Under the pieces are notes generated by a model. That model did no database searches and was not told the origin of the DNA. It saw only the letters and a list, made by a program, of their open reading frames with translations. A stretch of 64,000 nucleotides of DNA from Aliihoeflea sp. 40Bstr573 (lineage in GTDB: Bacteria > Pseudomonadota > Alphaproteobacteria > Rhizobiales > Rhizobiaceae): positions 1 through 64,000 of the forward strand of contig NZ_JAAAMH010000014.1 in NCBI RefSeq assembly GCF_024105655.1, written 5' to 3'. This document shows, in pieces, positions 18,825 to 33,694 of the stretch (the first letter of the stretch is position 1; each line of letters begins with the position of its first letter). Both the position numbers and the translations under genes were made by a program.

Positions 18825-18880
18825 CTTTCGTTTTCGCTCCTTCTAATGCAAATCGAAAGCCGATGCATCTATTTCGAAAA
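18825..18880. promoter_or_regulatory. TTTCG-rich region upstream of glpR, possible autoregulatory sites
   Basis: The short space upstream of glpR, running into the end of galM, holds TTTCGTTTTCG near 18826-18836, ATCGAAAG near 18852 and ATTTCGAAAAACGA near 18871. These share the TTTCG core with the regular repeats upstream of glpD. The spacing is less regular, so I rate this as suggestive of GlpR autoregulation only. Confidence 0.4.
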
Positions 18881-19876
18881 ACGATACTCGGTCACTTGCT
18901 CGTAGGTCTCGCCCGGCCGCAAGTCCGCCTGCGGGAAATCCGGGTTATTTGGCGCGTCCGGCCAGACCTGGGGCTCGAGGCAGAGACCGGCAAACGCGCC
19001 GTAGTTGCGTCCGCCGAGCCCGCCATCCACGGCTAGCTTGTGCCCCGCATAGAATTGCACGCCCGGTTCGCTCGTCCAAACTTCCATCGCTACGCCCGAT
19101 CGCGCGCCTTCTAGGCGAACCACTCGCGTCAACGAACGCCTGCCATCGGCAAGGCACCAATTGTGGTCGTAGGCGAACTGCGCACCGTCCTCGTTCCACG
19201 CAATCTCGCGCATCCTTCTGAAGTCGAACGGCGTTCCAGCCACATCGAGCGTTCCGCCGGTCGGAATCCATTCGCCATCGACCGGCACATAATTGTCTGC
19301 GTCGATCATCAACCGATGGCCGAGCACGTCGCCCGCCCCGCCATCGTCGAGATTGAAATAGGAGTGATGCGCAAGATTGCAGAGCGTCGGCGCATCGGTT
19401 CGCGCCGTCAGCCTCACTTTCAGCGCGCCATCCTCAAGCGTGTAAAGACATTCGATGTCGAGATTGCCGGGAAACCCCATTTCGCCGTCCCGGTCGGCGA
19501 GCGTCAGCCGCACGAAATCCGATCCCATGTCCGCGATCGTCCAGATCCGTTTGCCGATCCCCAAGATGCCGCCATGAAGCAGATGCTTTCCGAGGAAATT
19601 GGTATCGACCTGCACCGGCCGGCCGTCGAGTTCGAACCGGCCATGCCTGATCCGGTTGGCATAGCGCCCAGCGGTCGCGCCGAAGAAGGGCGAGCGCGCG
19701 GGGTAGTCCTCGAAGCGCTCGAAGCCGAGCACGAGCGGCGGCTCGTGGCCATCAAGGCGCAGATCCTGCATCACCGCGCCCCATGTCAGCACATGCGCGG
19801 TCAGCCCGCCGCCGGCGATGCGAATGCGCTGGACCGTCTCGCCAGCAGCGGTCCGACCGAATTCCTCGATGCTCAT
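18869..19876 (-). CDS. galM: Aldose 1-epimerase family mutarotase, possible sulfoquinovose mutarotase
   Basis: A 335-residue GalM-family protein. It has GATAGRYANRIRHGRFELDG, the catalytic-His segment NLAHHSYFNLD, a second conserved stretch around VDGEWIPTGGTLDVAGTPFDFR, and the C-terminal catalytic Glu in GLCLEPQVWPDAPN. The family interconverts sugar anomers. Its start overlaps the comC stop by four bases, so it is cotranscribed with the sulfolactate genes. In the E. coli sulfoquinovose cluster a mutarotase (YihR) has the same association, so sulfoquinovose is the likely substrate here; a general galactose/glucose role cannot be excluded from sequence. Confidence 0.88.
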   Translation of the reverse strand: MSIEEFGRTAAGETVQRIRIAGGGLTAHVLTWGAVMQDLRLDGHEPPLVLGFERFEDYPARSPFFGATAGRYANRIRHGRFELDGRPVQVDTNFLGKHLLHGGILGIGKRIWTIADMGSDFVRLTLADRDGEMGFPGNLDIECLYTLEDGALKVRLTARTDAPTLCNLAHHSYFNLDDGGAGDVLGHRLMIDADNYVPVDGEWIPTGGTLDVAGTPFDFRRMREIAWNEDGAQFAYDHNWCLADGRRSLTRVVRLEGARSGVAMEVWTSEPGVQFYAGHKLAVDGGLGGRNYGAFAGLCLEPQVWPDAPNNPDFPQADLRPGETYEQVTEYRFSK

Positions 19877-20877
19877 GCGGCACCGATCGCGCCGATTTCG
19901 TCGATCAGCGCCTCATCGACCGAAATGCCCTCGGCAGTGAGTTTCTTGCGCAGCGCGATACGACGATGTCCCGGCACGCGCGCGCCGTCACTGCCTGCGA
20001 TCTGGTCCGCCATCTGCGCAAACCGGACCATTGCATGGCTTCCGAATACGCCCGGATCGATGGCGATGATCGCCTGTCCCGTGCCCGGCGGATCGCCCGC
20101 GGCGTCGAAGAACGACGTCTGCTCATATCCGTAATTCGCGCCGGTGAGCCCGGCGCAGAGCAGCTCGACCATCAGCGCAAGCGCCGTTCCCTTGGCATTG
20201 CCGAGCGGGATCATCGTGCCGGCGAGCGCAGCCTTGGCGTCGGTCGTCGGATTGCCGTCCACGTCGAGCGCCCAGCCTTCGGGAATGGACTGCCCTTTCT
20301 GGTTTGCGGCCATGATCTTGCCGCGCGCGACCTTGGATAGCGAGACGTCGACGACGATCGGATCGCCGCCCTCCGTCGGACAGGAAAACGCAATCGGATC
20401 GGTTCCAAAGAGCGGCCGACGCCCACCCCACGGCGCCATCGCCGCCGGCGCATTGGCGAACATCAGCGCCACAAGCCCGCGCTCGGCCAGCGCCTCGACG
20501 GCGAGCCCCGCAACGCCGGCATGGTGCGAGCGATGGATGCCGGCAATCGCGACGCCTTGCGCCGGCGCCATCTCGGCCAGTTGCTCGCCGGCCATTTCCA
20601 GCGCCGGATAGGCAAAGCCGAACCCGGCATCGATCCGCACCGCGCCGGGCCGGACGCGCTCGGCACGCGGCACCGCATGGCCCTTGACCTTGCCGGCACG
20701 CGCCTGCGCCGCATAGGCCGGAACGCGCCTCAAACCGTGCCCGCCCTGCCCAACGAGCTCGGCGCTCACCAACGCCCGCGCGACAGCGTCGGCATTGTCG
20801 ACCGACGTTTCGCACGCCGTCAGCACGGCGGCGATCAGCGCATGCGCCTCACCCACCGTCAGAACCCGTTCGCTCAT
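19873..20877 (-). CDS. comC: Malate/L-lactate dehydrogenase-family enzyme, probable (R)-sulfolactate dehydrogenase
   Basis: A 334-residue Ldh_2-family NAD(P)-dependent oxidoreductase with GHGLRRVPAYAAQARAG, the catalytic histidine region GIHRSHHAGVAGLAVEALAE, the NAD-site segment APWGGRRPLFGTDPIAFS and DVSLSKVARGKI. This family includes ComC, which reduces sulfopyruvate to (R)-sulfolactate. Its neighbours are the reason for that call: it overlaps by four bases both a D-2-hydroxyacid dehydrogenase of the SlcC type and the galM gene, downstream of suyAB. Together SlcC and ComC would invert (S)-sulfolactate to the (R) form that SuyAB cleaves. Family is certain; the sulfolactate assignment is from context. 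Confidence 0.82.
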   Translation of the reverse strand: MSERVLTVGEAHALIAAVLTACETSVDNADAVARALVSAELVGQGGHGLRRVPAYAAQARAGKVKGHAVPRAERVRPGAVRIDAGFGFAYPALEMAGEQLAEMAPAQGVAIAGIHRSHHAGVAGLAVEALAERGLVALMFANAPAAMAPWGGRRPLFGTDPIAFSCPTEGGDPIVVDVSLSKVARGKIMAANQKGQSIPEGWALDVDGNPTTDAKAALAGTMIPLGNAKGTALALMVELLCAGLTGANYGYEQTSFFDAAGDPPGTGQAIIAIDPGVFGSHAMVRFAQMADQIAGSDGARVPGHRRIALRKKLTAEGISVDEALIDEIGAIGAA

Positions 20878-21806
20878 GCCTGCTTCTCCAGATGCGCGAT
20901 CACGAGTTCCGCGATCATGTCGGAGACACGCACATTCGATTCTTCCGTCACGCCCGCGATATGCGGCGTCAGCACGAGATTGGGAAGCCCCCTGAACTTC
21001 GCGCCGTCCGCCGCCGTCAACGGTTCGCTTTCGAACACGTCGAGCGCGGCTCCGCCAAGCCTTCCATCACGCAGCGCGTCGGCAAGCGCCGCCTCGTCGA
21101 CGACCCCGCCCCGCGCGGCATTGATCAGCACCGCGTCGCGCTTCATCAGCCCGAGCCGCCGCGCGTCGATCATGTGCCGCGTCGCCTCGGTCAACGGCAC
21201 GTGCAGCGAAACGACGTCGGCAAGTTCCATCAGGCCGTCGAGCGCGACATTGCGCGCGATCTGCCAGGCAGGGTGCCCCGCGTCCAGGTGCGGATCGTAG
21301 GCGAGTAGCCTCATGCCGTAGTCATGCGCCCGCCATGCAACTTCCTGCGCGATCGCGCCGAAGCCGATCAGGCCGAGCGTCTTGCCGGCAAGTTCGCGCC
21401 CCATCATCTTCTGGCGCGGCCACGCGCCCTCCGCCACCGCATCGCTCGATTGATAGGCCTGGCGCAAAAGCAGCATCGCATTGGCGATGACATATTCGGC
21501 AACCGCCAGATTGTTCGCCCCCGTCGCCGGGTGCACCGCGATCCCGCGCGCCGAACATGCCTCCACGTCGATATTGTCGAGCCCGACGCCCAGCCGCCCG
21601 ACGATTTCCAGTTTCCCCGCGCTCTCCAGAAGCGCGCCGCGCACCTGCGTGCGGTTGCGCACGATCAGCGCGCGCGCCGGCCGAACCAGGTCGGTGAGCC
21701 TTTCCGGATCATCCACCAGCTTCGGGTCGTAGAGCGTGTCGAACCGCGCGGTCAGCCGCGCGACCGCTGCCTCGTCCATGAATTCGCTGATGACGATGTC
21801 GGCCAT
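20874..21806 (-). CDS. slcC: D-2-hydroxyacid dehydrogenase family, probable (S)-sulfolactate dehydrogenase
   Basis: A 310-residue NAD-dependent enzyme of the phosphoglycerate dehydrogenase family. It shows GRLGVGLDNIDVEAC near residue 70, the NAD-binding GLIGFGAIAQEVA near 145, the catalytic Arg in INAARGGVVDE (about 232), the Glu in DVFESEP (about 259-261) and the catalytic His in LTPHIAGVT (about 282). SlcC, which oxidises (S)-sulfolactate to sulfopyruvate, belongs to this family. It starts one base after suyB and overlaps comC, the expected partner. A different hydroxyacid substrate is possible, but the operon makes sulfolactate the best choice. Confidence 0.83.
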   Translation of the reverse strand: MADIVISEFMDEAAVARLTARFDTLYDPKLVDDPERLTDLVRPARALIVRNRTQVRGALLESAGKLEIVGRLGVGLDNIDVEACSARGIAVHPATGANNLAVAEYVIANAMLLLRQAYQSSDAVAEGAWPRQKMMGRELAGKTLGLIGFGAIAQEVAWRAHDYGMRLLAYDPHLDAGHPAWQIARNVALDGLMELADVVSLHVPLTEATRHMIDARRLGLMKRDAVLINAARGGVVDEAALADALRDGRLGGAALDVFESEPLTAADGAKFRGLPNLVLTPHIAGVTEESNVRVSDMIAELVIAHLEKQA

Positions 21807-21807
21807 G

Positions 21808-22989
21808 TCACGCGCTGCGATAAAGCTTCGTCATCGAGAACTCGCGGTGCCCGAGCGCCTCGGCCGCCGTGTTGCGCCCGTTCGCCGTGCGCACGATCAT
21901 GTCGATCAGGGCGTCGCCCGCCTCGTCGATCGTCATCTCGCGCCGCAATATGCCCGACACGTCGACATCGACATGCTCGCCCATCGTGCGCACGGTGCGA
22001 GGATTGGCGGTGATCTTGATAACGGGCACGATCGGATTGCCGATCACGTTGCCCTGACCCGTTGGAAATGTGTGGATCACATACCCGCCCGCCGCCATCA
22101 GCGTCACGCATTCGGCCGCGGCCGACGAAGAATCCATGAAATAGAGCCCGTTGCCCGATTTCGGCATCTCGGCAGGCTCCAGAATGTCGATATATTTCGA
22201 CGTCCGGCCAATCTTCTCGAGGTTGCCGAGCGCCTTTTCCTCGATCGTCGTCAACCCGCCTTCGATATTGCCCTTGGTCGGCTGGCTTTCGGACAGATCG
22301 TCGGTCTTGAACTGCTCGATGACGTCGTCCTGATAGGCCTTCCACATCCTGTACCAGCGCTCGCCGACTTCCGGGTTGATCGCGCGCGCCTTGGCGATGT
22401 GCTCCGCGCCGGTGATCTCGGACGTCTCGCCAAAGCAGCCATAGATGCCTTCGGGCAGGAGCTTGTCATACATGTTGCCGACGGTCGGGCACGAGCCGAG
22501 CCCGGTCGTCGTGTCGCTCTCGCCGCATTTGGTCGAGACCCACAATTCCGAGATCGAGCATTCCTCGCGCTGCAGCTCGGTGGCGTAGTGGACGAACTCC
22601 TTCGCCTTGCGGCTGGCGTCCATAATTGTCTTCAGGTCGCCATTCTGCTCGATGGAAAAGCCCGCCACCGGCTTGCCGGTCTCCGCTATGCCGTCGACGA
22701 TCTTCTTCGTCCAGCCCGGTTCGATGCCGATGACGACGACGGCGGCGACGTTCGGGTTCGCGCCGGTACCGATCATGGTGCGGAAATGCAGCTCCAGGTC
22801 CTCGCCGAACTGCAGCCGCCCATAGGCATGCGGCAGCGCCATCGTGCCCTTGATGTTGTTGGCGACCGCCTCGCAGGCGGCGTTGGAAATGTCGTCGACC
22901 GGCAGGATGATGACATGGTTGCGCACGCCCACGCGCCCATTGTCGCGCCGATAGGCCTTGATCGTCCGGTTCGAATATTTCGACGCCAT
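21808..22989 (-). CDS. suyB: (R)-sulfolactate sulfo-lyase, large subunit
   Basis: A 393-residue protein of the UxaA/GarD altronate-galactarate dehydratase family, C-terminal part. It has [22 protein letters not shown] at the N-terminus, the metal-site motif [20 protein letters not shown], and [40 protein letters not shown]. With SuyA it forms the lyase that splits (R)-sulfolactate into pyruvate and sulfite. The split two-gene form (95 and 393 residues), the partner SlcC and ComC genes, and the sulfosugar genes nearby favour SuyB over a plain altronate dehydratase. I chose the ATG at 22989, with AGGAG 8 bases upstream, 10 bases after the suyA stop. Confidence 0.87.
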
Positions 22990-22999: not shown

Positions 23000-23287
23000 C
23001 TACCAGCGCTTGGTCTTGAGATTGTGGACATGGACGTGGCCGCCCTTGGCGACGTCGGCGACGAACCTGCCGATGTCCTCGCCATACTTGATTGCCGTGT
23101 CGCCGCTCTTGATGTCGGCAAGCGCGACCTTGTGGCCGATCGGCACGTCGGCCTTGGCTTCCAGCTCGAAGCTGGAATTGTCCTGCGTGACGACGCCGAG
23201 CATCTTCGTGCCCGCCGTCAGCCCTTCCACGACGACGACGCCGACATTGTCCTTGTGCTCGTGAACAAGCAGATGGGGAATCGCCAT
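23000..23287 (-). CDS. suyA: (R)-sulfolactate sulfo-lyase, small (SAF-domain) subunit
   Basis: A 95-residue SAF-domain protein, the N-terminal module of the UxaA family encoded separately. It reads [42 protein letters not shown] and ends [13 protein letters not shown], the usual end of these small subunits. It joins SuyB to make the sulfo-lyase that releases sulfite. GGAGG lies 6 bases before its ATG. It is the first gene of the suyA-suyB-slcC-comC-galM operon, and an inverted repeat shared with the importer promoter lies about 50-70 bases upstream. Confidence 0.88.
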
Positions 23288-23334: not shown

Positions 23335-23355
23335 CTCTTGTATAAGATAAAAGAC
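23335..23355. promoter_or_regulatory. 8-5-8 inverted repeat, probable GntR-family operator (copy 1)
   Basis: CTCTTGTA (23335-23342), a 5-base spacer TAAGA and TAAAAGAC (23348-23355) form an imperfect inverted repeat in the gap between the divergent suyA and GntR-family regulator genes. Each half differs by one base from the perfect copy at 29354-29374. Placement over both promoters fits control of suyAB and autoregulation by the adjacent GntR/UTRA protein. Confidence 0.75.
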
Positions 23356-23419: not shown

Positions 23420-24202
23420 GTGACCAGCGCACGGATGGAAGAATCAGACGGCGATTTCCAGGAAGAGCGCTTCCGCGCCGAGCGAGCCGGCAAGCTCGGC
23501 TACCAGCCGCTCTACAAGCGCGTGAAGGCGCTGCTCGTCGCCCGCATCGCCGACGGCCGCTGGCAGGCCGGCCAGTCCATCCCCAACGAGTTCCAGATTG
23601 CCGAGGAACTGAACGTATCCCAAGGCACGGTGCGCAAGGCCTTGCACGAGATGACGCTCGACAATCTGCTTGTGCGCCGGCAGGGGCGCGGCACCTTCGT
23701 CACATCCTATGATGACGAGCGCATCCTGTTCCAGTTCTTCAAGCTGACCCCCGACGAGGGCAGCCGGGAGTTTCCCGACTCGACGGTCCTCTCGCTCGAG
23801 AGTGGCGACGCCAACGCGGCCGAGGCCGATGCGCTTGCCATTCCCGCCGGTAACCCCGTCTGGCGTCTCATCCGCCGCCGTACGCTTGGCGAGAAGCCGC
23901 TGATCATCGAGCGCATCGTCCTACCGGCCGAGCACTTCCCCGAACTCGACCGTTTCGAGACCATCCCCAACAATGTCTACGGCCTCTATTCCACCCGCTA
24001 CGGCATCACCGTTGCCCGTGCGGTCGAGCGGCTCAAGGCAGTCGGCGCCGACGCCCACGACGCGCGCCATCTCGACTGCCCCTTCGGCATGCCACTCCTG
24101 GAAGTCGACCGCCGCGCCGTCGGCCTCGACGACCGCATCGTCGAATGGCGCATCTCCCGCTGCCTCACCGAAGCGCATCACTATCTGTCGGATCTGAAGT
24201 AG
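23420..24202 (+). CDS. GntR/HutC-family (UTRA) transcriptional regulator of the sulfosugar locus
   Basis: A 260-residue regulator. The N-terminal winged helix runs from about residue 28 to 95: YQPLYKRVKALLVARIADGRW, then IPNEFQIAEELNVSQGTVRKALHEM and the wing LLVRRQGRGTFV. A UTRA ligand-binding domain follows (PVWRLIRRRTLGEKPLIIERIVLP, then VEWRISRCLTEAHHY). The start is the GTG at 23420, with GGAGAAG upstream; an ATG five codons later is possible. It is transcribed away from suyA across a probable operator that recurs at the kinase/importer promoter, so it likely represses both and is relieved by a sulfosugar or its phosphate. The ligand is inferred. Confidence 0.88.
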   Translation: MTSARMEESDGDFQEERFRAERAGKLGYQPLYKRVKALLVARIADGRWQAGQSIPNEFQIAEELNVSQGTVRKALHEMTLDNLLVRRQGRGTFVTSYDDERILFQFFKLTPDEGSREFPDSTVLSLESGDANAAEADALAIPAGNPVWRLIRRRTLGEKPLIIERIVLPAEHFPELDRFETIPNNVYGLYSTRYGITVARAVERLKAVGADAHDARHLDCPFGMPLLEVDRRAVGLDDRIVEWRISRCLTEAHHYLSDLK

Positions 24203-24249: not shown

Positions 24250-24540
24250 ATGACTTTTGAATGGGATGAGGCGAAGAACCGGACAAACATCGCCAAGCAT
24301 GGGCTGAGTTTTGCAACCGCCTGTCGAATCTTCGAAGGTCCCGTCCTGACGGCAATCGATGACCGGTTCGAATATGGCGAAGTTCGCCGCAACAGCATCG
24401 GCGCGATCGAAGGCGTGTTCGTGCTCGTGGTGACCCACACCGACCGGAATGGCACAACCCGCATCATCTCCGCGCGCCCCGCCAAGCGCGTCGAAAGGAA
24501 CACCTATGAAGAAGCGCTACGACAGGGAATTGACCCTTGA
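24250..24540 (+). CDS. brnT: BrnT-family type II toxin (ribonuclease)
   Basis: A 96-residue protein with the BrnT pattern: FEWDEAKNRTNIAKHGLSF at the N-terminus, a central FEYGEVRRNSIGAI and the closing GTTRIISARPAKRVERNTYEE. BrnT toxins are small RelE-like ribonucleases that halt translation until bound by BrnA. The antitoxin gene overlaps its 3' end by 35 bases, the usual toxin-first order of this family. The pair lies between the GntR-type regulator and the candidate sulfoquinovosidase, in the middle of the sulfosugar locus. Confidence 0.9.
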   Translation: MTFEWDEAKNRTNIAKHGLSFATACRIFEGPVLTAIDDRFEYGEVRRNSIGAIEGVFVLVVTHTDRNGTTRIISARPAKRVERNTYEEALRQGIDP

Positions 24541-24779: not shown

Positions 24780-25892
24780 TCACGCCACCTGACGGTCGCG
24801 CCAGCCATCCGCAAACTCCACCGCCTGCCCCGTGCGCGCGGAAAGCTCCGCCGCCGCGCCCATCTCGACCGATCGCAGCCCGTCCTCGAGCGACACCTGC
24901 GGCTCGCCGCCTTCCAGCACCATCTGCCGGAACAACCGGTGCTGGTAGAAGGTCGAGCCGTGATGGTCGCCGGCGGCGAGGATTTCCGGGTCGACCTCGA
25001 TCACACGCCGCTCAGGCCCCTTCGGCTCGCGCGGCGAAATGACGATCTCCGCCGCCCGTTCGCCCGCGCCCGGCCAGAACCGCGCCGGTCCGGGCACAAA
25101 GGCCTCGATCTTGGCCGCGGAGCCCATCGCCGAGACGTGTTCCTGGAACCAGCTTCCTTCCGAAAACATGCAAAGTTCGAGCATCGCCCGCATGCCGTTG
25201 GCGAAATCGACGATCACATAGGCATTGTCGAGGATGTCCGGCGCGCGGCCGTCATAGGCCTCGTCCTTGTGGTTCACATCCTGCGCGCCGGACGCGAAGA
25301 TCCGCACCGGCTCCGATTGCGTGACGAGCCGCATCAGGTCGAAGAAATGGCAGCATTTCTCCACCAGCGTGCCGCCTGTCTCCGCCGAAAAGCGGTTCCA
25401 GTGGCCGACTTTGTGGAGGAAGGGAAAGCGGTGTTCACGGATCGTCAGCATCTTGGTCTCGCCGATCGTCCCGGCGCGGATTTCCTCGATCATGCGCGCG
25501 ATCGGCGGCATGTAGCGATATTCCATCGCCACCCATACCGGAGCCTTGCGGCTGGCGGCCACTGACAGGATGTGCCGGCTCGCCTCGGCAGTCGAGCAGA
25601 GCGGCTTTTCGACGAGGATCGGCAAGTCTGCCGGCATGACATCGAGCAGGATGTCGTGATGGGTCTGGTTGGGACTGGCGATGAGGAGCACATCCGCGAG
25701 CTGCGCATCCATCAGCGCACGATGATCGGCGAACTGCCGCGCCCCTCCGGCAAGCGCCGATGCACGTTCGCGCATGCTCTCGTCCGGATCGCTGACGGCG
25801 ACGATTTCCGTATCGGGCAAGAGCATGATGTTGCGAATATGCTCCTGCCCCATCATGCCCGAACCGATGATCGCGTAGCGCAGTCTGGCCAT
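24780..25892 (-). CDS. Gfo/Idh/MocA-family protein, candidate NAD-dependent sulfoquinovosidase (GH188-like)
   Basis: A 370-residue protein with an N-terminal NAD-binding Rossmann fold (YAIIGSGMMGQEHIRNI, residues 6-22), the family motif LVEKPLC near 93-99, and a C-terminal substrate domain containing VEKCCHFFDLMRLVT. By fold it is a Gfo/Idh/MocA oxidoreductase. Members of glycoside hydrolase family GH188 share this fold and use NAD transiently to hydrolyse sulfoquinovosides, and they occur in sulfoglycolysis gene clusters. This gene follows the sugar isomerase by 11 bases and no GH31 sulfoquinovosidase is present, so it is the best candidate for the gateway hydrolase. A plain sugar dehydrogenase is the alternative. 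The fold is certain, the reaction inferred. Confidence 0.75.
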   Translation of the reverse strand: MARLRYAIIGSGMMGQEHIRNIMLLPDTEIVAVSDPDESMRERASALAGGARQFADHRALMDAQLADVLLIASPNQTHHDILLDVMPADLPILVEKPLCSTAEASRHILSVAASRKAPVWVAMEYRYMPPIARMIEEIRAGTIGETKMLTIREHRFPFLHKVGHWNRFSAETGGTLVEKCCHFFDLMRLVTQSEPVRIFASGAQDVNHKDEAYDGRAPDILDNAYVIVDFANGMRAMLELCMFSEGSWFQEHVSAMGSAAKIEAFVPGPARFWPGAGERAAEIVISPREPKGPERRVIEVDPEILAAGDHHGSTFYQHRLFRQMVLEGGEPQVSLEDGLRSVEMGAAAELSARTGQAVEFADGWRDRQVA

Positions 25893-25903: not shown

Positions 25904-27304
25904 TCAGAATTCGAGAACCGGAAGGCCTATCTCGGCCGCGAGTGCCCGCAGCGCCGGCCGGTGATCGCCGTAGACGAGACTCAAATGATGCTCGAGTCCG
26001 GCCCCGATGATCGTCTCGGCGACGGTTTCGATTGCTGCGTCGAAGGCGAGCACGCCTGCCGTGCCGGAAAAGGCGAGCGGTCGGCGCTGCATCTGCCCGC
26101 CTGCGATCACCATCGTCGGATGCCCGCGCGCCTGGCTGATCCGGGCAAAGGTGACGCGGCCGGGCTTCAGCGGGAACTCGAAGAGCAGCGGCATCTTGCG
26201 GTTGGAATGGATCGCAGCCTTCGCGATCACCGTCTCGTCGCGCATCGAAACCGGCGCCTGCCCGCAGTGCCAGACCACGGCGGTGCCGTCCTCAGCGTCC
26301 AGGTCGACGAGATCAACGAGAAACGCCGCCTCGCCGGTCATCTCTTGGAGGAAAAGGTTCGTCAGCGCGCCATGGACGTCGGCCTCGCAGGCGCACGGCA
26401 CGCGCCGCTCCCCCATCATGCCGACCGGCCCACAGACCGCGCCGCCATATTGCGTGAACATCTCCGGCCAGCAGCGCACCGCAAAGGCCGAATAGCCGCC
26501 TGTCGCGCGCACGTCTTCCAGCGCGGCGCGCAAGCGTAGCGAGCGGTCCAGTTGGTCCTGATCGACCGTGTCGAGATCACCGAGCGTCGCCCCCGCCTCC
26601 GCGCGCGCCTCGCCGACGGCGCCCGCGTCCGCATTCCGCGCGGCGTCGAACAGCGCGTCGAGCGCGATTGGCTCTACCGAGACTCCGGCTAGGCTTTCCA
26701 GCCGCTCCGAATCATAGTCGCAGGTGAAGAACCCGTCCGGCCGCTCGCCGATCCGCCCGATCCGGCTGCCGGCGATGCGTGCCAGGAGCGCCCGCGCGCC
26801 GGCCCTCTCGACTTCGCCCGCTTCTGCCGGAGCAAGCGGCAGCGCGTTCGCCTGCCGGTTCCCGGCAAGAAGATCGCCGGCCAAGGCACCGACATCCGTC
26901 GTCGCGGGGTCCGCATGGACCCAGCCGAACGCAACGTCGTTCAGGCCCAGCGCGTGCGCCGCGAGATTGAGTCCGCAAAATGCGTTGAGCCGCAGCCGCC
27001 CGCCGGTCCGCGGCTCGGGAAGCGACCAGATCGCGAGCGGCGCATCCGCTTCATCGGCAATCTTCACAGTCATCGTCGCATCGGTGAAAGTCACCTGCAC
27101 GATAAGCAGGAGATCGAGCGGCTCGCCCGTCATCGCAGCGAGCGCGGCCTCGGTCGCCGGCGCGTCGAACAGCAGCGCATCGCCGCTAACAAGATCGTGC
27201 CCTGCAGCCAAAAGCCCGCGCCTCAGCTTGCCGTAGAGCGCTTCGGCATAAGGCACGTCGAAGGTCGCACGCGCCAGCGGCAACAGCCCGATCCGTGCCA
27301 TCAT
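25904..27304 (-). CDS. L-fucose isomerase-family protein, candidate sulfoquinovose isomerase (SqvD-like)
   Basis: A 466-residue protein of the L-fucose/L-arabinose isomerase superfamily. The N-terminal domain begins MARIGLLPLARATFDVPYAEAL, and the C-terminal half carries the metal-site region CGPVGMMGERRVPCACEADVHGALTNLF, then LVDLVDLDAEDG and VVWHCGQAP. These metal enzymes interconvert aldoses and ketoses. Within this locus the expected step is sulfoquinovose to sulfofructose; fucose-isomerase-type SqvD enzymes do this in other bacteria, in place of YihS. Its start overlaps the aldolase stop, so isomerase, aldolase and kinase are coupled. The substrate assignment comes from neighbours. Confidence 0.8.
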   Translation of the reverse strand: MMARIGLLPLARATFDVPYAEALYGKLRRGLLAAGHDLVSGDALLFDAPATEAALAAMTGEPLDLLLIVQVTFTDATMTVKIADEADAPLAIWSLPEPRTGGRLRLNAFCGLNLAAHALGLNDVAFGWVHADPATTDVGALAGDLLAGNRQANALPLAPAEAGEVERAGARALLARIAGSRIGRIGERPDGFFTCDYDSERLESLAGVSVEPIALDALFDAARNADAGAVGEARAEAGATLGDLDTVDQDQLDRSLRLRAALEDVRATGGYSAFAVRCWPEMFTQYGGAVCGPVGMMGERRVPCACEADVHGALTNLFLQEMTGEAAFLVDLVDLDAEDGTAVVWHCGQAPVSMRDETVIAKAAIHSNRKMPLLFEFPLKPGRVTFARISQARGHPTMVIAGGQMQRRPLAFSGTAGVLAFDAAIETVAETIIGAGLEHHLSLVYGDHRPALRALAAEIGLPVLEF

Positions 27305-28356
27305 CCGCCTCCCATGCCGGGATAGGCCATTCCCTCATAAGAATGCCGGAACGAAGCATCCGCATGGGCAATCTCGGCCCTGCCGCCATAAAGCGGCGTG
27401 TCGAACCACGGCGTCGCGCCTTGATCCGTCAGCGCATTGATCCGCTTCACATAGGGCAGGCTCGTCTGCCGCAGGCCGGCGCGGATCGCCTCCCAATCCG
27501 GAAACGCCTTGAACGGTTCGGACCAGATCGCTCGACCCGCCAGATAGCCTGACGCACCGGCCGCGTAGGCGTGCTTCAACACCGCCTCGAACTCCGCCAT
27601 GCCGGCGCCCGCCGAAAGCATCACCCAGGGGCGGCGGGCGATCCGGCCCATTTCATCGAAGAGTTTCTGCGTCGCGCCGCCCGACCCGTCGCCGATACCC
27701 TTGGCCGGCACCGGACTTTCCAGCTTGAAGATATCGATGCCAAAGGCCGGGTCGGCGAAACGCCGCACGCTTTCCAGCACGTTGTCGGCCTGTTTCGCCG
27801 CCATCTCGACATAGTCCGTCGTCTGGTCCGCCTCGCCGGGCAGCGGATAGACGAGCAGTTCGAAAAGATAGGGAATGTCATAGACTTGGCAGGCTTCGCC
27901 GATTCTTTTCGCGAAGTCTTCCTGTGCCTGGCAATTGGCGCGATCGGCATCCGGCCGATACCATGCCAGCACCTTCACCGCGTCGCCGCCGGCGCGCTTT
28001 ATCTTTTCGACCGACCAGTCGTCGATCTCGCCCGAAAGCCGCCCCGTCTCCGTCTCTTGGAAAATCGAATCCTCCAGCGTCACGATCATGCCCTTGGCTG
28101 GCGAAGAGACGGAAAGCCCGCGCGGCAGCGCGAAATGCGGGTCCATCAGCACCGCCGAGGTCTCCGCCTGCAACTCCTCCACCAGCATCAGCTTGAAGCG
28201 GGCCACGTCCTCATAGGGCGCTTCAGCGGTGCCACGCATCGCCTTGATCAGTTTCTTGATCGGCGGGCGCTGGTCGACGGCCAGCATCTTGAACCGCCCG
28301 TTGTCGTCGGCGAGCCGCCGCAGGCCCCACAGCTTGCCGGCCGAAAGTGACGTCAT
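27301..28356 (-). CDS. LacD/YihT-type class I aldolase, candidate sulfofructose-phosphate aldolase
   Basis: A 351-residue TIM-barrel aldolase related to tagatose-1,6-bisphosphate aldolase LacD and to YihT. The N-terminal motif MLAVDQRPPIKKLIK, the phosphate-side region VKVLAWYRPDAD and the Schiff-base lysine in DIFKLESPVPAKG (Lys211) are visible, then WVMLSAGAGMAEFE and GASGYLAGRAIW. In sulfoglycolysis this class splits sulfofructose 1-phosphate into dihydroxyacetone phosphate and sulfolactaldehyde. It starts at the ATG at 28356, overlapping the kinase stop (ATGA). It is longer than YihT by about 60 residues, part of it a C-terminal tail. Tagatose-bisphosphate cleavage is the alternative, but no galactose or tagatose genes are near. 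Confidence 0.83.
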   Translation of the reverse strand: MTSLSAGKLWGLRRLADDNGRFKMLAVDQRPPIKKLIKAMRGTAEAPYEDVARFKLMLVEELQAETSAVLMDPHFALPRGLSVSSPAKGMIVTLEDSIFQETETGRLSGEIDDWSVEKIKRAGGDAVKVLAWYRPDADRANCQAQEDFAKRIGEACQVYDIPYLFELLVYPLPGEADQTTDYVEMAAKQADNVLESVRRFADPAFGIDIFKLESPVPAKGIGDGSGGATQKLFDEMGRIARRPWVMLSAGAGMAEFEAVLKHAYAAGASGYLAGRAIWSEPFKAFPDWEAIRAGLRQTSLPYVKRINALTDQGATPWFDTPLYGGRAEIAHADASFRHSYEGMAYPGMGGG

Positions 28357-29258
28357 GCCTGCGATCCTTCGCATCTGTTCAGGAATTGATCGAGTTCGAC
28401 GCGGGTCGGAATTCCCGCTCGCCCGCCGAACCGGGTGCATTTCAGCGCCGCCGCCGCCGAGGCAAAGCGTATCGCCGCGCGCGTTTCCATGCCTTCGGCA
28501 AGCGCCACGGTCAGCGCGCCATGCCACACGTCGCCGGCGCCGAGCGTGTCGACGACATCGACCGCGTAGGCCGGTTCATGCGCGATCGCATCGCCCTCGA
28601 AGAACAGCGTTCCCTCCGCGCCGATCGTGACGGAAAGATGCGCGGCACACCGTTCGCGCAGGCGCGTCAGCCCGGCGCGCGGATCGGCCGTTCCCGTCAT
28701 CTCGCGCAGCGCCTGCGCCGACAGCGCGACATGGCTCGCAGCGTCCAGAAGGCTCGCATCGAAGGGCGGCCGGTCGACGTCGAGCACGGCCGGCAGGCCC
28801 GCGCCGCGCGCAAGATCGAAGAGATGCCGCGCGCCCTCCTCCCAACGAATGTCGCCCATCACCGCGCCCGTTCCGGCCGGCAGTTCGTCCGGCAGCCAGT
28901 CCGTCGCTGTCGGGATCGACCAGTCGCCGTAATTGACGATCATCCGCTCTCCCGCATCGTCGACATAGACCGAGGAGAGCGGCGAGCGATGCCCTGCAAA
29001 GCGGCGCAGACCGGCGCAATCGACGCCTTCGGCCGCAAGTCCCTCCCCGATCTGTCCTGCCACGACATCGTCGCCGATGCGCCCGATCATATGCGCGCTG
29101 TGGCCAAGCCGCGCCGCCGTTACCGCCGCATTGGCGGCCAGCCCGCCACCGACGATCTGCAAGTCGCGCGCCCGGTATTTTTCGGCGCGGTCAGGGAGAC
29201 GGTCGACCAGGAAGATATAGTCGACGACCGCGATACCGATGAAGAAGATGTCGCTCAT
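28353..29258 (-). CDS. PfkB-family sugar kinase, candidate sulfofructose kinase
   Basis: A 301-residue ribokinase/PfkB-family kinase. It begins [21 protein letters not shown], has the first signature region [16 protein letters not shown] near 37-51, and the catalytic loop [13 protein letters not shown] with the general-base Asp at about 243. YihV, the sulfofructose kinase of E. coli, belongs to this family and is encoded beside the aldolase, as here. I chose the ATG at 29258; upstream in-frame codons read unlike protein and run into the divergent promoter. It is the first gene of the kinase-aldolase-isomerase-glycosidase operon and faces the sugar importer across a shared operator. Confidence 0.85.
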
Positions 29259-29353: not shown

Positions 29354-29374
29354 GTCTTGTATCTTTTACAAGAC
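29354..29374. promoter_or_regulatory. 8-5-8 perfect inverted repeat, probable GntR-family operator (copy 2)
   Basis: GTCTTGTA (29354-29361), spacer TCTTT and TACAAGAC (29367-29374) form a perfect inverted repeat in the 205-base gap between the divergent kinase and importer ATPase genes. The same architecture with one change per half occurs at 23335-23355 beside the GntR/UTRA gene. A two-fold symmetric site of this size is typical for a dimeric GntR/HutC repressor. Confidence 0.8.
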
Positions 29375-29463: not shown

Positions 29464-30552
29464 GTGGCAGGCGTCGAAATTCGCCGGGTCGTCAAGCAAT
29501 ATGGCCGCGTCGAAGTGCTTCATGGCGTGGACCTTTCGGTGCGCGACGGCGAGTTTGTGGTCCTCGTCGGCCCGTCCGGTTGCGGCAAGTCCACGCTCTT
29601 GCGAATGATCGCAGGACTGGAGGGCATCACCGGCGGCGAGATCGCCATCGACGGCACGGTGGTCAACGACATGCCGCCGCGCGAACGCGACCTTGCGATG
29701 GTCTTCCAGGACTACGCGCTTTATCCGCACAAGAGCGTCTACGACAATATGGGCTTTGGCCTGCGCATGCGCGGCGCGGCGAAGTCGGAAATCGAAACGC
29801 TCGTCCACGAAGCTGCGGACATCCTCCAGATACGGCACCTGCTCGAGCGCCGCCCCGGCCAACTTTCCGGCGGCCAGCGCCAGCGCGTCGCCATGGGCCG
29901 TGCAATCGTGCGCCGGCCGAAGGTCTTCCTTTTCGACGAACCGCTCTCCAATCTGGACGCCCAGCTCCGCGCCGAAATGCGCGTCGAGATCAAGAAGCTG
30001 CACCAGCGCTTCGGCACCACCATCGTCTATGTCACGCACGACCAGATCGAGGCGATGACGCTCGCCGACCGCATCGCGATCATGAAGGATGGCCATCTCC
30101 AGCAATACGGCACGCCGGACGAGGTCTACAATCGCCCGGCCAACCGCTTCGTCGCCTCCTTCATCGGTGCCCCGCCCATGAACATGACGCCCGCCAGCGT
30201 CTCGGCCGATGCGCAGGCGATCCGCCTGCCGTCGGGCGTGGACGTCGCGCTGCACGGCGCGAACCTTGCCGCCTGTGCCGGCCGCGACATCGTCATAGGC
30301 CTTCGCCCCGAGCACGTCACGCTCGGCCATCACGATCCGTCGCGCACGCCCGTTGCCGGCCAGGTCGAACTGGTTGAGCCCCTTGGCTCCGAGACACAGG
30401 CGACCGTGCGCGTCGGCGACGCCCGCTTCACCGGGCGCTTTTCCCCCGATGCCGGACTGAAGTACGGCCAGGACGTCACCCTCGGCCTCGCGCTCGACCG
30501 CGCCCATTTCTTCGATGCCGAAACCGGCGAAGCCATCCGCCTCGCCGCCTGA
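29464..30552 (+). CDS. Sugar ABC importer ATP-binding subunit (MalK/UgpC-like)
   Basis: A 362-residue ABC ATPase of the carbohydrate-uptake CUT1 type. It shows [21 protein letters not shown], Walker [11 protein letters not shown]-loop [17 protein letters not shown], signature [14 protein letters not shown], Walker [12 protein letters not shown], the H-loop [12 protein letters not shown] and a C-terminal TOBE-like domain with [11 protein letters not shown] chose the GTG at 29464, preceded by GGGAGG; the frame continues upstream but is not protein-like. It heads an ATPase, binding protein, permease, permease operon that is divergent from the sulfofructose kinase candidate. Together these resemble the sulfoquinovosyl glycerol importers of other Rhizobiales. 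Confidence 0.92.
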
Positions 30553-30603: not shown

Positions 30604-31863
30604 ATGACGAGACTGATTACCGGAACCACGCTCGCCGCGATCATGACCTTGTCGGCCGGATCGGCCTTGGCGCAGACGGAACTGCGAATCTTCACCGGCG
30701 GCCAGCAGCGCCCCGACGTCATGCGCCAGATCCTCGACGCCTATCAGGAACAGAACCCCGACGTGAACGTCGAGGTCGAGGTCGGCGGTGCGACGTCCGA
30801 ACAGCAGCAGCAATATCTGAACACCGTCTTGGCCTCGCAGGATTCCACGCTCGACGTGGTCCTGATCGACGTCATCCGTCCCGCGCAATGGGCGGCCGCG
30901 GGCTGGGCGGAGCCGCTCGACGAATATCTTGGCGACGAGCGCGACGCGGTCATGGATCGCTACCTGCCCGCCTATCGCGAGGCCAACATCGTCGATGGCC
31001 AGGTGATGGCGCTGCCCTACTTCGCGGATTCGCAGTTCCTCTACTACCGCACCGACCTGCTGGAAAAGCACGGCGTCGAGCCGCCGAAGACCTGGGACGA
31101 ACTGAAAGCCGCCGCGCTCAAGATCAAGGAAGCGGAAGGCAATCCCAATCTCGCCGGCTTCCTCACCGCCGGCGCGCCGATCGAAGGCACGGTCTGCACC
31201 TATCTCGTCCCCTATTGGGGCGCGGGCGGCGAGCTTGGCGGCGAAGGCGGCGCGATCACGCTGTCGCAGGAGCAGGCCGCGCGCCCCTTTGAGCTGTGGG
31301 GCGACTTCAAGGAATCGGGCGTCCTGCCGCCGAACATCGCCGAAATCCCGACCGACCGCATCCGCCAGGACTTCCAGGCCGGCAACGCCATCTTCGCGAT
31401 GAACTGGGGCTATGTATGGAACCGCGTCCAGAACGACGAGGACAGCCAGGTCAAGGGCAATGTCGGCGTCGTCACCCTGCCCGGCTTCACCGCCGACACG
31501 CCGGCGACCTGCATCGGCGGCTGGCAGCTCGCCGTCTCCGCATTTTCCGAGAACAAGGAAGCGGCTGTCGAACTGGTGAAATATCTCTCCAGCCCCGAAG
31601 TCTCCAAGCAGCAGGCGATCCTCGCCTCGCACATGCCGGTCTTCCCCGAGGTTTACACCGATGCCGAGGTGCTTGAGGCCAATCCGTGGTTTGAAGACGC
31701 GCTTCCAGTCGTCGAAACCGCCCGCTCGCGTCCCGTCACCCCGGCCTATCCGCGCGTGTCGGAGGTCATCCGGACCAACATGAATGCCTTCCTCGCCGGC
31801 ACCCAGGACGGAGCCGCCTCCCTGCAGGGCATCGAGCAGGGACTGTCGGAGGTCATGCAGTAA
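30604..31863 (+). CDS. Sugar ABC importer periplasmic binding protein, candidate sulfoquinovoside-binding
   Basis: A 419-residue family 1 extracellular solute-binding protein. The signal peptide (MTRLITGTTLAAIMTLSAGSALA) is followed by mature protein starting QTELRIFTGG. Typical CUT1 binding-protein segments follow: AYQEQNPDVNVEVEVGG, VVLIDVIRPAQWAAAGW, DGQVMALPYFADSQFLYYRTDLLEKHG and PKTWDELKAAALKI. It would capture the sugar for the two permeases that follow. Context (sulfosugar enzymes, shared operator) suggests sulfoquinovose or sulfoquinovosyl glycerol as ligand. AGGGAG lies just ahead of the start. Confidence 0.9.
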   Translation: MTRLITGTTLAAIMTLSAGSALAQTELRIFTGGQQRPDVMRQILDAYQEQNPDVNVEVEVGGATSEQQQQYLNTVLASQDSTLDVVLIDVIRPAQWAAAGWAEPLDEYLGDERDAVMDRYLPAYREANIVDGQVMALPYFADSQFLYYRTDLLEKHGVEPPKTWDELKAAALKIKEAEGNPNLAGFLTAGAPIEGTVCTYLVPYWGAGGELGGEGGAITLSQEQAARPFELWGDFKESGVLPPNIAEIPTDRIRQDFQAGNAIFAMNWGYVWNRVQNDEDSQVKGNVGVVTLPGFTADTPATCIGGWQLAVSAFSENKEAAVELVKYLSSPEVSKQQAILASHMPVFPEVYTDAEVLEANPWFEDALPVVETARSRPVTPAYPRVSEVIRTNMNAFLAGTQDGAASLQGIEQGLSEVMQ

Positions 31864-31927
31864 GGCTTCCTAGGCGGCCGAAACCATCCGGCCGCCTCAT
31901 TCTTCCCAAAAGCAGAGGACTTGGCCG

Positions 31928-32863
31928 ATGGCGCCACGTACGGGCAAGACGGTGGCTCTGAAGCCCCTGCCGCTGACCCGCCTGGAAAAATCCGAGCGGC
32001 GGCTGGGTCTGCTGATGATCCTGCCGGCCTTCCTCTTGCTCTTCGCCGTCGTGCTGTTCCCGATCGGCCGCCTCCTCGTGACCTCGACGCAGCAACTGCG
32101 CCTGACCGAGCCCTGGCTCGGCACACCGTTCATCGGCCTTGCGCACTACCAGAAGGCGCTCACCGACCCCCGGTTCTGGGAAACGACGCTCAACACGGTC
32201 ATTTACATCGCCGTCACGGTGCCCGGCGCCATCGTCGTCGGCCTCGGTCTCGCGCTCCTCGCCAACCAGCCCTTCAGGGTCAAGTGGCCGGTGCGGCTCG
32301 GCCTCCTCCTGCCCTGGGCGCTGCCGCTTGTCTTCGCGGGCCTCATCTTCCGCTGGTTCTTCGAGTTCAACCAGGGCATCGTCAACAACATCCTCATGTG
32401 GGTCGGCCTGCCCAAGCTCGCCTGGCTCACCGATCCATTCCTCGCCACCATCGCCATCTGCATCGCCATCATCTGGAAGACGTCGAGCTTCGTCGCGCTG
32501 ATCCTGCTTGCCGGCCTGCAGACGATCCCGAAATCGCTCTACGAGGCGGCCGAGATTGACGGCGCGTCGAAATGGCAGCAATTCATCGAGATTACGCTGC
32601 CGATGCTGCGGCCCGCGATCATCGTCGCCGCCATCTTCCGCACCATCACCGCGATCCAGACCTTCGACATCCCCTATGCGATGACGAATGGCGGGCCGGG
32701 CAATTCGACCGAGACGCTCGCCATGTATATTCTCAAGACGACGATCGACTTTCTCGATCTCGGCTACGGCTCGGCGCTCGCGGTGCTGATGTTCGTCGTC
32801 TCGCTCGTAATGACCGCCGGCTACCTGCGCTACACGCGTCGCGACCCCCGGCAGGAGGCGTAG
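31928..32863 (+). CDS. Sugar ABC importer permease (MalF-like)
   Basis: A 311-residue inner-membrane permease with six hydrophobic helices. The first helix is LGLLMILPAFLLLFAVVLFPIGRL, and the ATPase-coupling EAA motif reads YEAAEIDGASKWQQFIEITLPMLRPAII, standard for CUT1 MalF-type subunits. It pairs with the MalG-like protein whose start follows directly after its stop (TAG then ATG). It lies 64 bases after the binding-protein gene and is read in the same direction. Confidence 0.93.
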   Translation: MAPRTGKTVALKPLPLTRLEKSERRLGLLMILPAFLLLFAVVLFPIGRLLVTSTQQLRLTEPWLGTPFIGLAHYQKALTDPRFWETTLNTVIYIAVTVPGAIVVGLGLALLANQPFRVKWPVRLGLLLPWALPLVFAGLIFRWFFEFNQGIVNNILMWVGLPKLAWLTDPFLATIAICIAIIWKTSSFVALILLAGLQTIPKSLYEAAEIDGASKWQQFIEITLPMLRPAIIVAAIFRTITAIQTFDIPYAMTNGGPGNSTETLAMYILKTTIDFLDLGYGSALAVLMFVVSLVMTAGYLRYTRRDPRQEA

Positions 32864-33694
32864 ATGATGCGTCTGCCCCGCCCGCGCGTGATGGTTCTCC
32901 TCGCCGGTCTCGTCGTCGTCGTCAACGGCTTCGTGCCGGCCATCTGGATCGTTTTGACCTCGTTCAAGACCGAGGCCGAGCTCCTTCGCCTGCCGATCAC
33001 CATCCTGCCCGACACGCTGACCTTCCAGAACTACACACGCGTCTTCACCGACCAGCCGATCCTCGCCTTCATGTGGAACTCGGTCGCGGTCGCCACGCTG
33101 TCGACGCTTCTGTGCGTCACCGTCTCGGCGCTCGCGGCCTATGCGCTGGTGCGCCTTCGCCTGCCCGCACCAGGCCTCATCCTGTCGGTGCTGATGGCGA
33201 TCGCCATGTTCCCGCTGATCTCGCTGATGGTGCCGCTCTTCCAGGTCATGCGCACGGTCGGCCTCCTGAATACATGGTGGGCCCTGGTCCTGCCCTACGC
33301 GGTCCTTTCCATGCCGGTCTGCACCATGGTGCTGATTTCCTTCTTTCAGGACATCCCGAAGGACCTCGAAAGCGCGGCCATGATCGACGGCTGCTCGCGG
33401 CTCGGCGCGCTGTGGCACGTCGTCATTCCGCTGACGGCGCCCGGCGTCTTCACCGCCGGCATCCTCGCCTTCGTCAATGCGTGGGACGAGTTCCTGCTGG
33501 CGCTGACGCTCTCATCGCGCCTGTCGAGCCGCACGCTGCCGGTCGGCATCACGCTCTATCAGGGCGAGTTCTCGTTCCCCTGGCCGATCATCTCCGCCGC
33601 ACTCGTCGTGGCCATCGTGCCGATCTCGATCATCATCGCGCTCTTCCAGGAACGCGTGGTGGGTGGCCTGACGCAGGGCGGCATGAAGGGCTGA
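32864..33694 (+). CDS. Sugar ABC importer permease (MalG-like)
   Basis: A 276-residue permease of the MalG type. It has an N-terminal helix (VMVLLAGLVVVVNGFVPAIWIVLTSFKT), a NYTRVFTD periplasmic segment, and the coupling motif LESAAMIDGCSRLGALWHVVIPLTAPGV. It completes the importer complex with the MalF-like permease, the MalK-like ATPase and the binding protein. It is the last gene of the operon; no clear terminator follows in the 175-base gap before the mechanosensitive channel gene. Confidence 0.93.
   Translation: MMRLPRPRVMVLLAGLVVVVNGFVPAIWIVLTSFKTEAELLRLPITILPDTLTFQNYTRVFTDQPILAFMWNSVAVATLSTLLCVTVSALAAYALVRLRLPAPGLILSVLMAIAMFPLISLMVPLFQVMRTVGLLNTWWALVLPYAVLSMPVCTMVLISFFQDIPKDLESAAMIDGCSRLGALWHVVIPLTAPGVFTAGILAFVNAWDEFLLALTLSSRLSSRTLPVGITLYQGEFSFPWPIISAALVVAIVPISIIIALFQERVVGGLTQGGMKG

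Follow-up and report, generated by a model that had tools for sequence, protein, structure and literature searches.

A locus of Aliihoeflea sp. 40Bstr573 (positions 18869 to 33694 of the 64,000-nucleotide stretch analysed here, referred to as the window) combines genes for an Embden-Meyerhof-Parnas (EMP)-type breakdown of the abundant plant sulfosugar sulfoquinovose (SQ) with genes for the desulfonation of sulfolactate, and one palindromic operator is found in the promoters of both operons. Together, these genes probably encode a tandem pathway for mineralising SQ within one cell. An earlier note, made from the sequence alone, had proposed that the two tiers are joined here; this is well supported and is strengthened by the shared operator, which that note had not described.

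In the proposed pathway, a SmoF-like ATP-binding cassette (ABC) system would import sulfoquinovosyl glycerol, from which SqgA, a glycosidase of family GH188, would free SQ and glycerol. A FucI-type isomerase would convert SQ to sulfofructose, a PfkB kinase would produce sulfofructose-1-phosphate, and a LacD-type aldolase would split it into dihydroxyacetone phosphate (DHAP) and (S)-sulfolactaldehyde. The next enzyme, an aldehyde dehydrogenase whose gene lies outside the locus, probably on contig C1, would yield (S)-sulfolactate, which SlcC and ComC would invert via sulfopyruvate to (R)-sulfolactate, the predicted substrate of SuyAB for cleavage to pyruvate and sulfite. Oxidation of the sulfite to sulfate would fall to a SorT-like sulfite dehydrogenase encoded on contig C7. 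The GntR/UTRA regulator would repress both operons at the palindrome, so that the tiers switch together, and sulfolactate or an SQ-derived effector would relieve this repression and induce import, glycoside hydrolysis, and C-C and C-S bond cleavage at once. The proposal is based on protein families, residues, the operator, and their conservation, from which we infer all of the reactions, the binding of GntR to the palindrome, the effector, and the sign of regulation.

In the common picture of sulfoglycolysis, two species act in turn, the first excreting sulfolactate or dihydroxypropanesulfonate (DHPS) and the second desulfonating it. The presence of both tiers in one bacterium has been called unusual (mBio 2025, PMC12421959), and SQ production is about 10 billion tons a year (PMC10755693, PMC12890257). 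The genes of both tiers recur under the shared operator in many genomes of the family, including named Nitratireductor, Hoeflea, and Aliihoeflea strains.

A shared operator and its distribution

The gap between suyA and gntR and the gap between the kinase and importer operons each contain TCTTGTANAAGATANAAGA with no mismatches, an agreement that is no test of the pattern, since it was drawn from these two sites. In the source genome (4.21 Mb in 69 contigs, the window being positions 1 to 64000 of contig C6), operators 1 and 2 (Table 1) were the only sites with fewer than three mismatches, and two more had three. Matches with three mismatches are noise, because at that level a reversed control pattern gave 11 sites versus 4 for the operator, and the two exact sites stand apart from this background. 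Among 2,000 shuffled suyA upstream regions, none had a site with ≤3 mismatches.

In a sample of 297 genomes of the family, the isomerase had a match in 48 (42 at ≥48% identity and 6 at 28 to 33%) and SuyB was found in 62. SuyB was present in 34 of the 42 genomes with a close isomerase versus 28 of the 255 others (Fisher p = 3e-20, not corrected for relatedness). The isomerase and SuyB genes were ≤25 kb apart in 19 of these 34 genomes, further apart on the same contig in 2, and on different contigs, which in draft assemblies do not prove distance, in 13. The kinase, aldolase, isomerase, and sqgA genes formed the common core of 39 regions, five of which had no LacD-type aldolase match. These four genes recur together in most regions, with suy genes beside them in many, more often than expected by chance. 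The best 80 of 288 named loci gave an inventory in which the counts are lower bounds because flanks were often cut by contig ends: all four core genes were found in 58 loci, suyB (≥70%) within the flanks in 15, an aldehyde dehydrogenase (≥60%) in 26, and slcC without comC or suyB in 35, and a YihS match was found in none of the 80. According to record titles, 13 of the 15 suyB loci belong to Hyphomicrobiales, where we take Nitratireductor, Hoeflea, and Aliihoeflea to be placed, one belongs to Albidovulum inexpectatum, and one belongs to an unplaced alphaproteobacterium. Two loci from metagenome-assembled genomes (MAGs; L170 and L173) also share the SmoF-like importer.

Of the 42 genomes whose isomerase is close, 40 were searched with a relaxed form of the pattern, the palindrome TCTTRTAWAAGAYANAAGA, and 36 of these had a usable kinase upstream region (three had no kinase match, and one region was cut by a contig end). 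The operator was found at the kinase gene in 24 of the 36 genomes, and all 24 also had suyB and the operator at suyA (Fisher tests of the association, 0.008 and 0.0005, not corrected for relatedness). Similarly, suyA and the kinase gene occur together in 16 named loci, 15 of which had the operator at both promoters (≤3 mismatches). In 7 of the 24 genomes with the operator at both promoters, suyAB was located on another contig or 925 kb away. The distance is certain in G105 (925 kb) and in G060, where both lie in the interior of long contigs, whereas the genes may be neighbours in G066, G235, and G288, since one of them lies at a contig end. Because the operator is shared by both promoters, also where suyAB is distant, the two tiers look like one regulon, which would yield DHAP, pyruvate, and sulfite from SQ. 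Next to suyA, and on the other strand, a gene for a GntR relative occurs in 26 of the 30 suyA regions that have the operator and in 0 of the 10 that lack it (not corrected for relatedness), which ties this regulator to the palindrome.

An alternative is that two separate functions are neighbours here, an SQ operon from which sulfolactate or DHPS is excreted and an operon for the sulfolactate of other organisms. The sulfolactate regulon does stand alone elsewhere: 20 of the 28 suyB genomes with no close isomerase were examined, and 18 had the operator at suyA (≤3 mismatches), which indicates that it is a sulfolactate operator first. In addition, the sulfolactaldehyde dehydrogenase is encoded outside the locus, and many of the 80 named loci have no suyAB in the flanks examined. 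However, all 24 genomes with the operator at the kinase gene also have it at suyA, even over the distances seen in G105 and G060, and seven relatives have an aldehyde dehydrogenase gene inside the suyA operon, which makes separate functions improbable.

The plasmid of Sinorhizobium mexicanum ITTG R7, the record of which carries no annotation, has two exact matches to TCTTRTAWAAGAYANAAGA, one at suyA and the other between the solute-binding protein gene of a sugar operon and a divergent gene for an HpcH-type aldolase. The region contains PF13561, PF13378/PF02746, PF03328, and PF08450, the types given for SfcH, SfcF, SfcE, and SfcD, respectively, and the strain is listed as a tandem sulfofucose candidate (PMC12421959). 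No site with ≤3 mismatches was found in the Cupriavidus, SC52, Paracoccus versutus, and Rhodococcus regions, whereas Paracoccus aestuarii has one site with three mismatches and Methylobacterium oryzae has two sites with two. We lean toward the view that the GntR/UTRA protein and TCTTRTAWAAGAYANAAGA define a sulfosugar mineralisation regulon in Alphaproteobacteria. This regulon would be built around a constant sulfolactate operon, with sugar modules captured, in cis or in trans, by gaining the operator. The captured modules would be SQ by a hybrid EMP route here and sulfofucose by an Entner-Doudoroff (ED) route in S. mexicanum. If this is true, complete SQ mineralisation by single cells is common in Rhizobiaceae, for which the two-species view fails.

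Second copies of suyAB had no operator in G066, G139, and G203 and had one in G265. In two members of the genus, the suyB genes at G060:C12:252314 and G265:C9:90978, located elsewhere or as a second copy, are 99 to 100% identical to that of the window, and the operator lies upstream of these suyAB copies. The slcC and comC genes of the SQ loci in these two genomes are just 88 to 90% identical, and the SQ locus of G060 has no suyAB. Such a pattern suggests that suyAB has moved or undergone gene conversion.

Import and the predicted sulfoquinovose enzymes

The solute-binding protein scored 410 bits with SmoF (PDB 7nbz) and 220 bits with the next PDB protein, so that its nearest relative is that of an SQ-glycerol importer. 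The PDB matches of the predicted glycosidase were SqgA of Arthrobacter (8qc3, 428 bits), SqgA of Flavobacterium (8qc2, 424 bits), and 8zn9 (408 bits), followed by a protein at 69 bits. The residues around SQ in SqgA include Lys107, Tyr136, Arg166, Leu170, Lys172, Glu189, His193, and His321, of which Arg166, Leu170 (backbone), and Lys172 contact the sulfonate and Glu189 contacts the C4 hydroxyl (JACS 2023). All eight were identical in the aligned window protein (offset of 13 between chain and paper numbering); Glu163, also named in that paper, falls one residue off under this offset and was left out of the scoring. Based on its closeness along the whole length and on these contacts, the GFO_IDH_MocA protein is a GH188 member, with predicted activity as an NAD-dependent sulfoquinovosidase. 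Thirteen of the named loci lack SqgA at ≥45%, and two of them (the related loci L130 and L134), with no sqgA match, have a YihQ-like GH31 protein (27 to 28%) in its place, consistent with a report that the two types of sulfoquinovosidase are complementary in their distribution.

The earlier note had asked for comparison of the kinase with characterised enzymes, and its nearest solved relative proved to be YihV (7ag6, 216 bits and 43% identity; next match, 171 bits). Lys27, Asn109, and Arg138, which we take to be the sulfonate-binding residues of YihV, occupy the same positions as in the Escherichia coli protein. In 72 rows (the window, E. coli, and 70 named loci), Lys27 and Arg138 were present in all and Asn109 was present in 60. 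Six other PfkB kinases, namely RbsK and PfkB of E. coli and four from the source genome, all lacked the triad; two weak matches from that genome were left out.

The aldolase is of class I and the LacD type and has the Schiff-base lysine, as judged from its sequence, and it is the weak point of the upper tier. Its Lys211 aligns with the Schiff-base Lys193 of YihT and is kept in 72 of 72 rows. The best PDB match was 8tnf (307 bits), named just as a DUF2090 domain-containing protein, followed by LacD enzymes (127 to 141 bits) and YihT (82 to 83 bits, 28% identity). In four loci, L037 (G062), L046 (G105), L055 (G082), and L067 (G087), the kinase and isomerase occur with no LacD-type aldolase match, and another aldolase may replace it.

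The sole NCBIfam match of the isomerase was the sulfoquinovose isomerase SftI (NF048012), and with the Pfam fucose-isomerase C-terminal domain it scored 27.5 bits, just below the cut-off of 29.3. Its predicted structure (predicted local distance difference test score [pLDDT], 87) matched the fold of arabinose and fucose isomerases, with 41 Foldseek matches at a probability of 1.00 and template modelling (TM) scores of 0.52 to 0.58 by query length; the likeness is at the fold level only, because the root mean square deviation was ~24 Å and the identity was 10 to 16%. Glu281, Asp309, and His448, presumably metal ligands by analogy with FucI, were invariant in 10 aligned rows. The nearest relatives are found in a Rhizobiaceae MAG (91%), Aliihoeflea sp. 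2WW (90%), and Mesorhizobium sp. YIM 152430 (88%). Many relatives have an extra stretch between the aldolase and isomerase genes, in which same-strand open reading frames (ORFs) resemble antisense shadows of an opposite-strand feature; one of these ORFs was scanned and had no Pfam match.

Another sulfohexose could be the substrate, for example sulfofucose, which would be degraded through sulfotagatose, its phosphorylation, and a tagatose-type aldolase to the same SuyAB cassette. The aldolase belongs to the LacD/tagatose subfamily and the isomerase to the fucose-isomerase family, and the same operator is present at the sulfofucose-type genes of S. mexicanum. In addition, Paracoccus wurundjeri grows on sulfofucose and not on SQ, and in its cluster slcC, comC, and suyAB are accompanied by genes of the PF00294 and PF01791 families, although the proteins encoded by these two genes were not induced (PMC12421959). 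Against sulfofucose, SqgA of the window keeps Glu189, the contact of the C4 hydroxyl of SQ, together with the other contacts, and two of the 13 loci without SqgA have the YihQ-like protein. Flavobacterium SqgA cleaves SQ glycosides but showed no activity with the tested glucosides or glucuronide (sulfofucosides are not among the compounds named in the accessible text). An SQ pathway is favoured, because the best solved relatives of the glycosidase, kinase, and importer are SQ proteins. LacD aldolases, moreover, are known to be loose at C4. Another sulfohexose is considered an unlikely substrate.

Predicted desulfonation and the sulfolactaldehyde step

A search for plasmid homologues of SuyB (best 40 of 306 records) gave 13 records that were 92 to 60% identical, and the remaining 27 were ≤39% identical. 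Seven of the 13 were opened, and the six that are annotated show two adjacent UxaA-family genes with sulfonate-type neighbours. SuyB is 69% identical to that of Cupriavidus pinatubonensis, where suyAB follows hpsN and hpsO, and 81% identical to two Paracoccus proteins. In P. versutus, suyAB is accompanied by genes for a sulfate exporter and a sulfite oxidase, and in P. aestuarii the order is GntR, suyA, suyB, and then slcC- and comC-like genes; the Rhodococcus koreensis and M. oryzae contexts were also among those opened. In a tree of 15 rows, ten SuyB rows formed one clade on a long stem with support of 100/100, and E. coli UxaA, GarD, and three other dehydratases fell outside it, with a warning from the tree tool of long branches among the outgroups. 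Grouping with altronate or galactarate dehydratases, which the earlier note had named as a refuting outcome, was thus rejected. Although SuyB matched nothing but galactarate dehydratases in NCBIfam (130 bits; cut-off, 731) and the PDB (128 bits), the separate clade, the split among plasmid homologues, and the paired UxaA-family genes make it very improbable that SuyA and SuyB are dehydratase relatives in an operon for sugar acids. SuyA is 37 to 77% identical to the SuyA proteins of seven reference suyAB loci, and the clade placement of SuyB together with a separate SuyA identifies the pair as a sulfolactate sulfolyase.

The SlcC-like protein shares 61 to 64% identity with the dehydrogenase whose gene precedes comC close to suyAB in both P. 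aestuarii and M. oryzae; its best NCBIfam model was phosphoglycerate dehydrogenase, below the cut-off. The putative comC was assigned by gene context, and its product is 62 to 63% identical to the protein encoded near suyAB in the same two species. The single PF00174 protein of the genome, encoded on contig C7 next to a cytochrome c gene, scored 597 bits with sulfite dehydrogenase 2xts, which we take to be SorT of Sinorhizobium meliloti. A profile search of the genome found no PF03601 protein (presumably the SuyZ exporter family) and six TauE-family matches, none of which was given a role.

The earlier note had described the locus as complete from import to C-S bond cleavage. This did not hold, as no sulfolactaldehyde dehydrogenase gene is located within it. 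In seven relatives (L048, L050, L053, L091, L093, L094, and L095), the suyA operon has an additional gene, for an aldehyde dehydrogenase, after comC and ahead of the mutarotase gene. The orthologue in the source genome (84% identical; C1:39030-40484) is the probable gene for this step. It adjoins a gene for a PF03547 transporter, relatives of which occur inside the SQ locus in 6 of 39 regions, and the two genes are adjacent in G060, G211, G265, G148, G255, and G021. The S. mexicanum plasmid region also has a relative of the dehydrogenase, at 83%. The GabD-like in-operon enzyme is a candidate for the sulfolactaldehyde step in the seven relatives and in S. mexicanum; P. wurundjeri itself is reported to have no GabD or SlaB homologue (mBio 2025, PMC12421959).

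Several results weigh against the tandem pathway and its joint regulation. None of the 16 PF00171 aldehyde dehydrogenase matches of the genome is on contig C6, and a site search found no operator at the C1 gene and its adjoining transporter gene. The dehydrogenase gene may encode a general succinate-semialdehyde dehydrogenase, because it is kept in G148, a member of the genus with neither the isomerase nor suyB; the in-operon enzyme also scored higher with E. coli GabD (676 bits) than with 8c54 of Rhizobium leguminosarum (587 bits). ComC reached 201 bits with NF040650, the best of its five matches, against a cut-off of 500, and the 248 bits of the isomerase are far below the NF048012 equivalog cut-off of 700. 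Of the LacD/YihT-type aldolase that the earlier note had described, the Schiff-base lysine was confirmed, but orthology to YihT was not, as 8tnf and LacD enzymes score higher; with PRK12858, the NCBI tagatose-1,6-bisphosphate aldolase subfamily, the protein scored 326 bits against a cut-off of 184, an outcome that the earlier note had itself listed as contrary. As to regulation, the pattern comes from the window's own sites, its reversed control was the more frequent at three mismatches, and the Fisher tests treat related genomes as independent. The kinase operator was absent from 12 of the 36 genomes, 8 of which have suyB; six suyA regions of these 8 were examined, and two had the operator. 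In addition, L187 (Albidovulum) has both tiers and no operator, and suyAB of G060 is on another contig.

Gene layout and comparison with known systems

The protein families named in the earlier note were all recovered with Pfam and NCBIfam (Table 1), and gene spacing indicates three transcription units: the kinase, aldolase, isomerase, and sqgA genes; the divergent CUT1 importer set; and suyA, suyB, slcC, comC, and the mutarotase gene, with the divergent GntR/UTRA gene. The ORFs overlap by 4 bp at the kinase/aldolase, aldolase/isomerase, slcC/comC, and comC/mutarotase junctions, and the gaps are 11 bp (isomerase/sqgA), 10 bp (suyA/suyB), and 1 bp (suyB/slcC). Starts were corrected inside the listed ORFs for the kinase (29258), aldolase (28356), suyB (22989), and ATPase (GTG, 29464).

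Table 1. Features of the probable sulfoquinovose locus and adjoining glycerol genes (window coordinates)
Feature	Coordinates	Strand	Basis
Aldose 1-epimerase (mutarotase), last gene of suyA operon	18869..19876	-	PF01263, 246 bits
comC-like, putative (R)-sulfolactate dehydrogenase	19873..20877	-	PF02615; NCBIfam L-sulfolactate dehydrogenase, 201 bits (cut-off 500)
slcC-like, putative (S)-sulfolactate dehydrogenase	20874..21806	-	PF02826/PF00389
suyB, sulfolactate sulfolyase large subunit	21808..22989	-	PF20629/PF04295; clade placement
suyA, sulfolactate sulfolyase small subunit (95 amino acids [aa])	23000..23287	-	Separate, directly upstream of suyB
Operator 1, between suyA and gntR	23336..23354	+	TCTTGTATAAGATAAAAGA; kept upstream of relatives' suyA
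GntR/UTRA regulator, divergent from suyA; proposed regulator of both operons	23420..24202	+	PF00392, PF07702
sqgA, predicted NAD-dependent sulfoquinovosidase (GH188)	24780..25892	-	SqgA 8qc3, 428 bits; GFO_IDH_MocA
Putative sulfoquinovose isomerase, L-fucose/L-arabinose isomerase family	25904..27304	-	NCBIfam SftI model, 248 bits
Class I aldolase (LacD/PRK12858 type), proposed sulfofructose-1-phosphate aldolase	27301..28356	-	PF01791; PRK12858, 326 bits
PfkB kinase, proposed sulfofructose kinase	28353..29258	-	YihV 7ag6, 216 bits
Operator 2, between kinase and importer operons	29355..29373	-	TCTTGTAAAAGATACAAGA
ABC ATPase (MalK type), GTG start	29464..30552	+	PF00005, TOBE_2, OB_MalK
SmoF-like solute-binding protein, predicted for sulfoquinovosyl glycerol	30604..31863	+	SmoF 7nbz, 410 bits
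ABC permease 1	31928..32863	+	PF00528
ABC permease 2	32864..33694	+	PF00528
Glycerol kinase-like (FGGY), GlpD-like dehydrogenase, GlpR-like DeoR regulator	14958..18812	-	PF00370/PF02782, PF01266/PF16901, PF00455/PF08220

The glycerol freed from sulfoquinovosyl glycerol would be consumed through the FGGY kinase, GlpD-like, and GlpR-like genes, which lie downstream of the mutarotase gene. The DeoR protein was considered as CsqR (38% identity over 246 aa) and rejected, since the E. coli glpR (pseudogene) region is the closer match (44% over 197 aa) and its gene adjoins glycerol genes. These adjoin genes for a TonB receptor, a periplasmic binding protein, a FecCD permease, and an ATPase (10192 to 14862, plus strand), an uptake set of the iron-chelate or vitamin B12 type. 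A BrnT/BrnA toxin-antitoxin pair is located between gntR and sqgA (24250 to 24769, plus strand); BrnT has a full-length relative (94%) in Aliihoeflea sp. 2WW (L034/L127), whereas the match in L033/L129 covers just 18 aa and L035 gave none at an E value of 1e-5. On the other side of the locus are a bacteriophytochrome-type histidine kinase gene (38571 to 40895, minus strand; PHY, GAF, and PAS_2) and other two-component genes (36151 to 38157 and 42015 to 45046).

The hybrid sulfo-EMP upper tier (PMC12890257), the lower cassette, and, since 2025, the tandem idea for sulfofucose are already known. A literature search, outside of which lay supplements and most subscription papers, found no report of tandem SQ desulfonation by an EMP route, of SQ-SuyAB coupling in one locus or regulon and its breadth in Rhizobiaceae, or of the operator. 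The upper tier resembles the sulfo-EMP and hybrid sulfo-EMP1/2 routes (E. coli yih, Arthrobacter AK01, and Vibrio) in its YihV-type kinase, class I aldolase, and predicted products, DHAP and sulfolactaldehyde, and it shares the GH188 glycosidase and ABC importer with Arthrobacter (PMC8873060, PMC12890257, PMC13372026, PMC9594981). It differs from sulfo-EMP in having an isomerase of the SqvD/SftI (FucI) family and not YihS, a LacD-type aldolase, no YihU match at the locus, and a desulfonation operon in place of sulfolactate or DHPS excretion. The combination that the earlier note had suggested might be a distinct variant, a FucI-type isomerase with a class I aldolase, is present together with a YihV-type kinase but fits the hybrid sulfo-EMP1/2 combinations that a 2026 review noted in Proteobacteria and Actinobacteria (PMC12890257). 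A FucI-type isomerase also occurs in sulfo-EMP2 of Bacillus urumqiensis, where SqiK is of the PfkA type and SqiA is a class II aldolase, whereas a PfkB kinase and a class I aldolase are found here (PMC9594981).

The lower operon has the gene set of the GntR-suyA-suyB-slcC-comC cassette of P. aestuarii, M. oryzae, and Chromohalobacter, with a divergent GntR gene as in P. aestuarii, but lacks a PF03601 protein anywhere in the genome and is coupled to the SQ operon by the shared operator. As a whole, the locus is most like the tandem sulfofucolytic-sulfolactate sulfolyase system of P. wurundjeri (PMC12421959), in which a sulfosugar tier, SlcC, ComC, SuyAB, and an ABC importer are likewise encoded in one cluster and the sulfolactaldehyde dehydrogenase is likewise unassigned. 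The accessible text of that paper reports no shared operator, which was found here, and the upper tier there is an ED-type sulfofucose route (SfcH, SfcD, SfcF, and SfcE), whereas here it is of the EMP type and includes a GH188 glycosidase.

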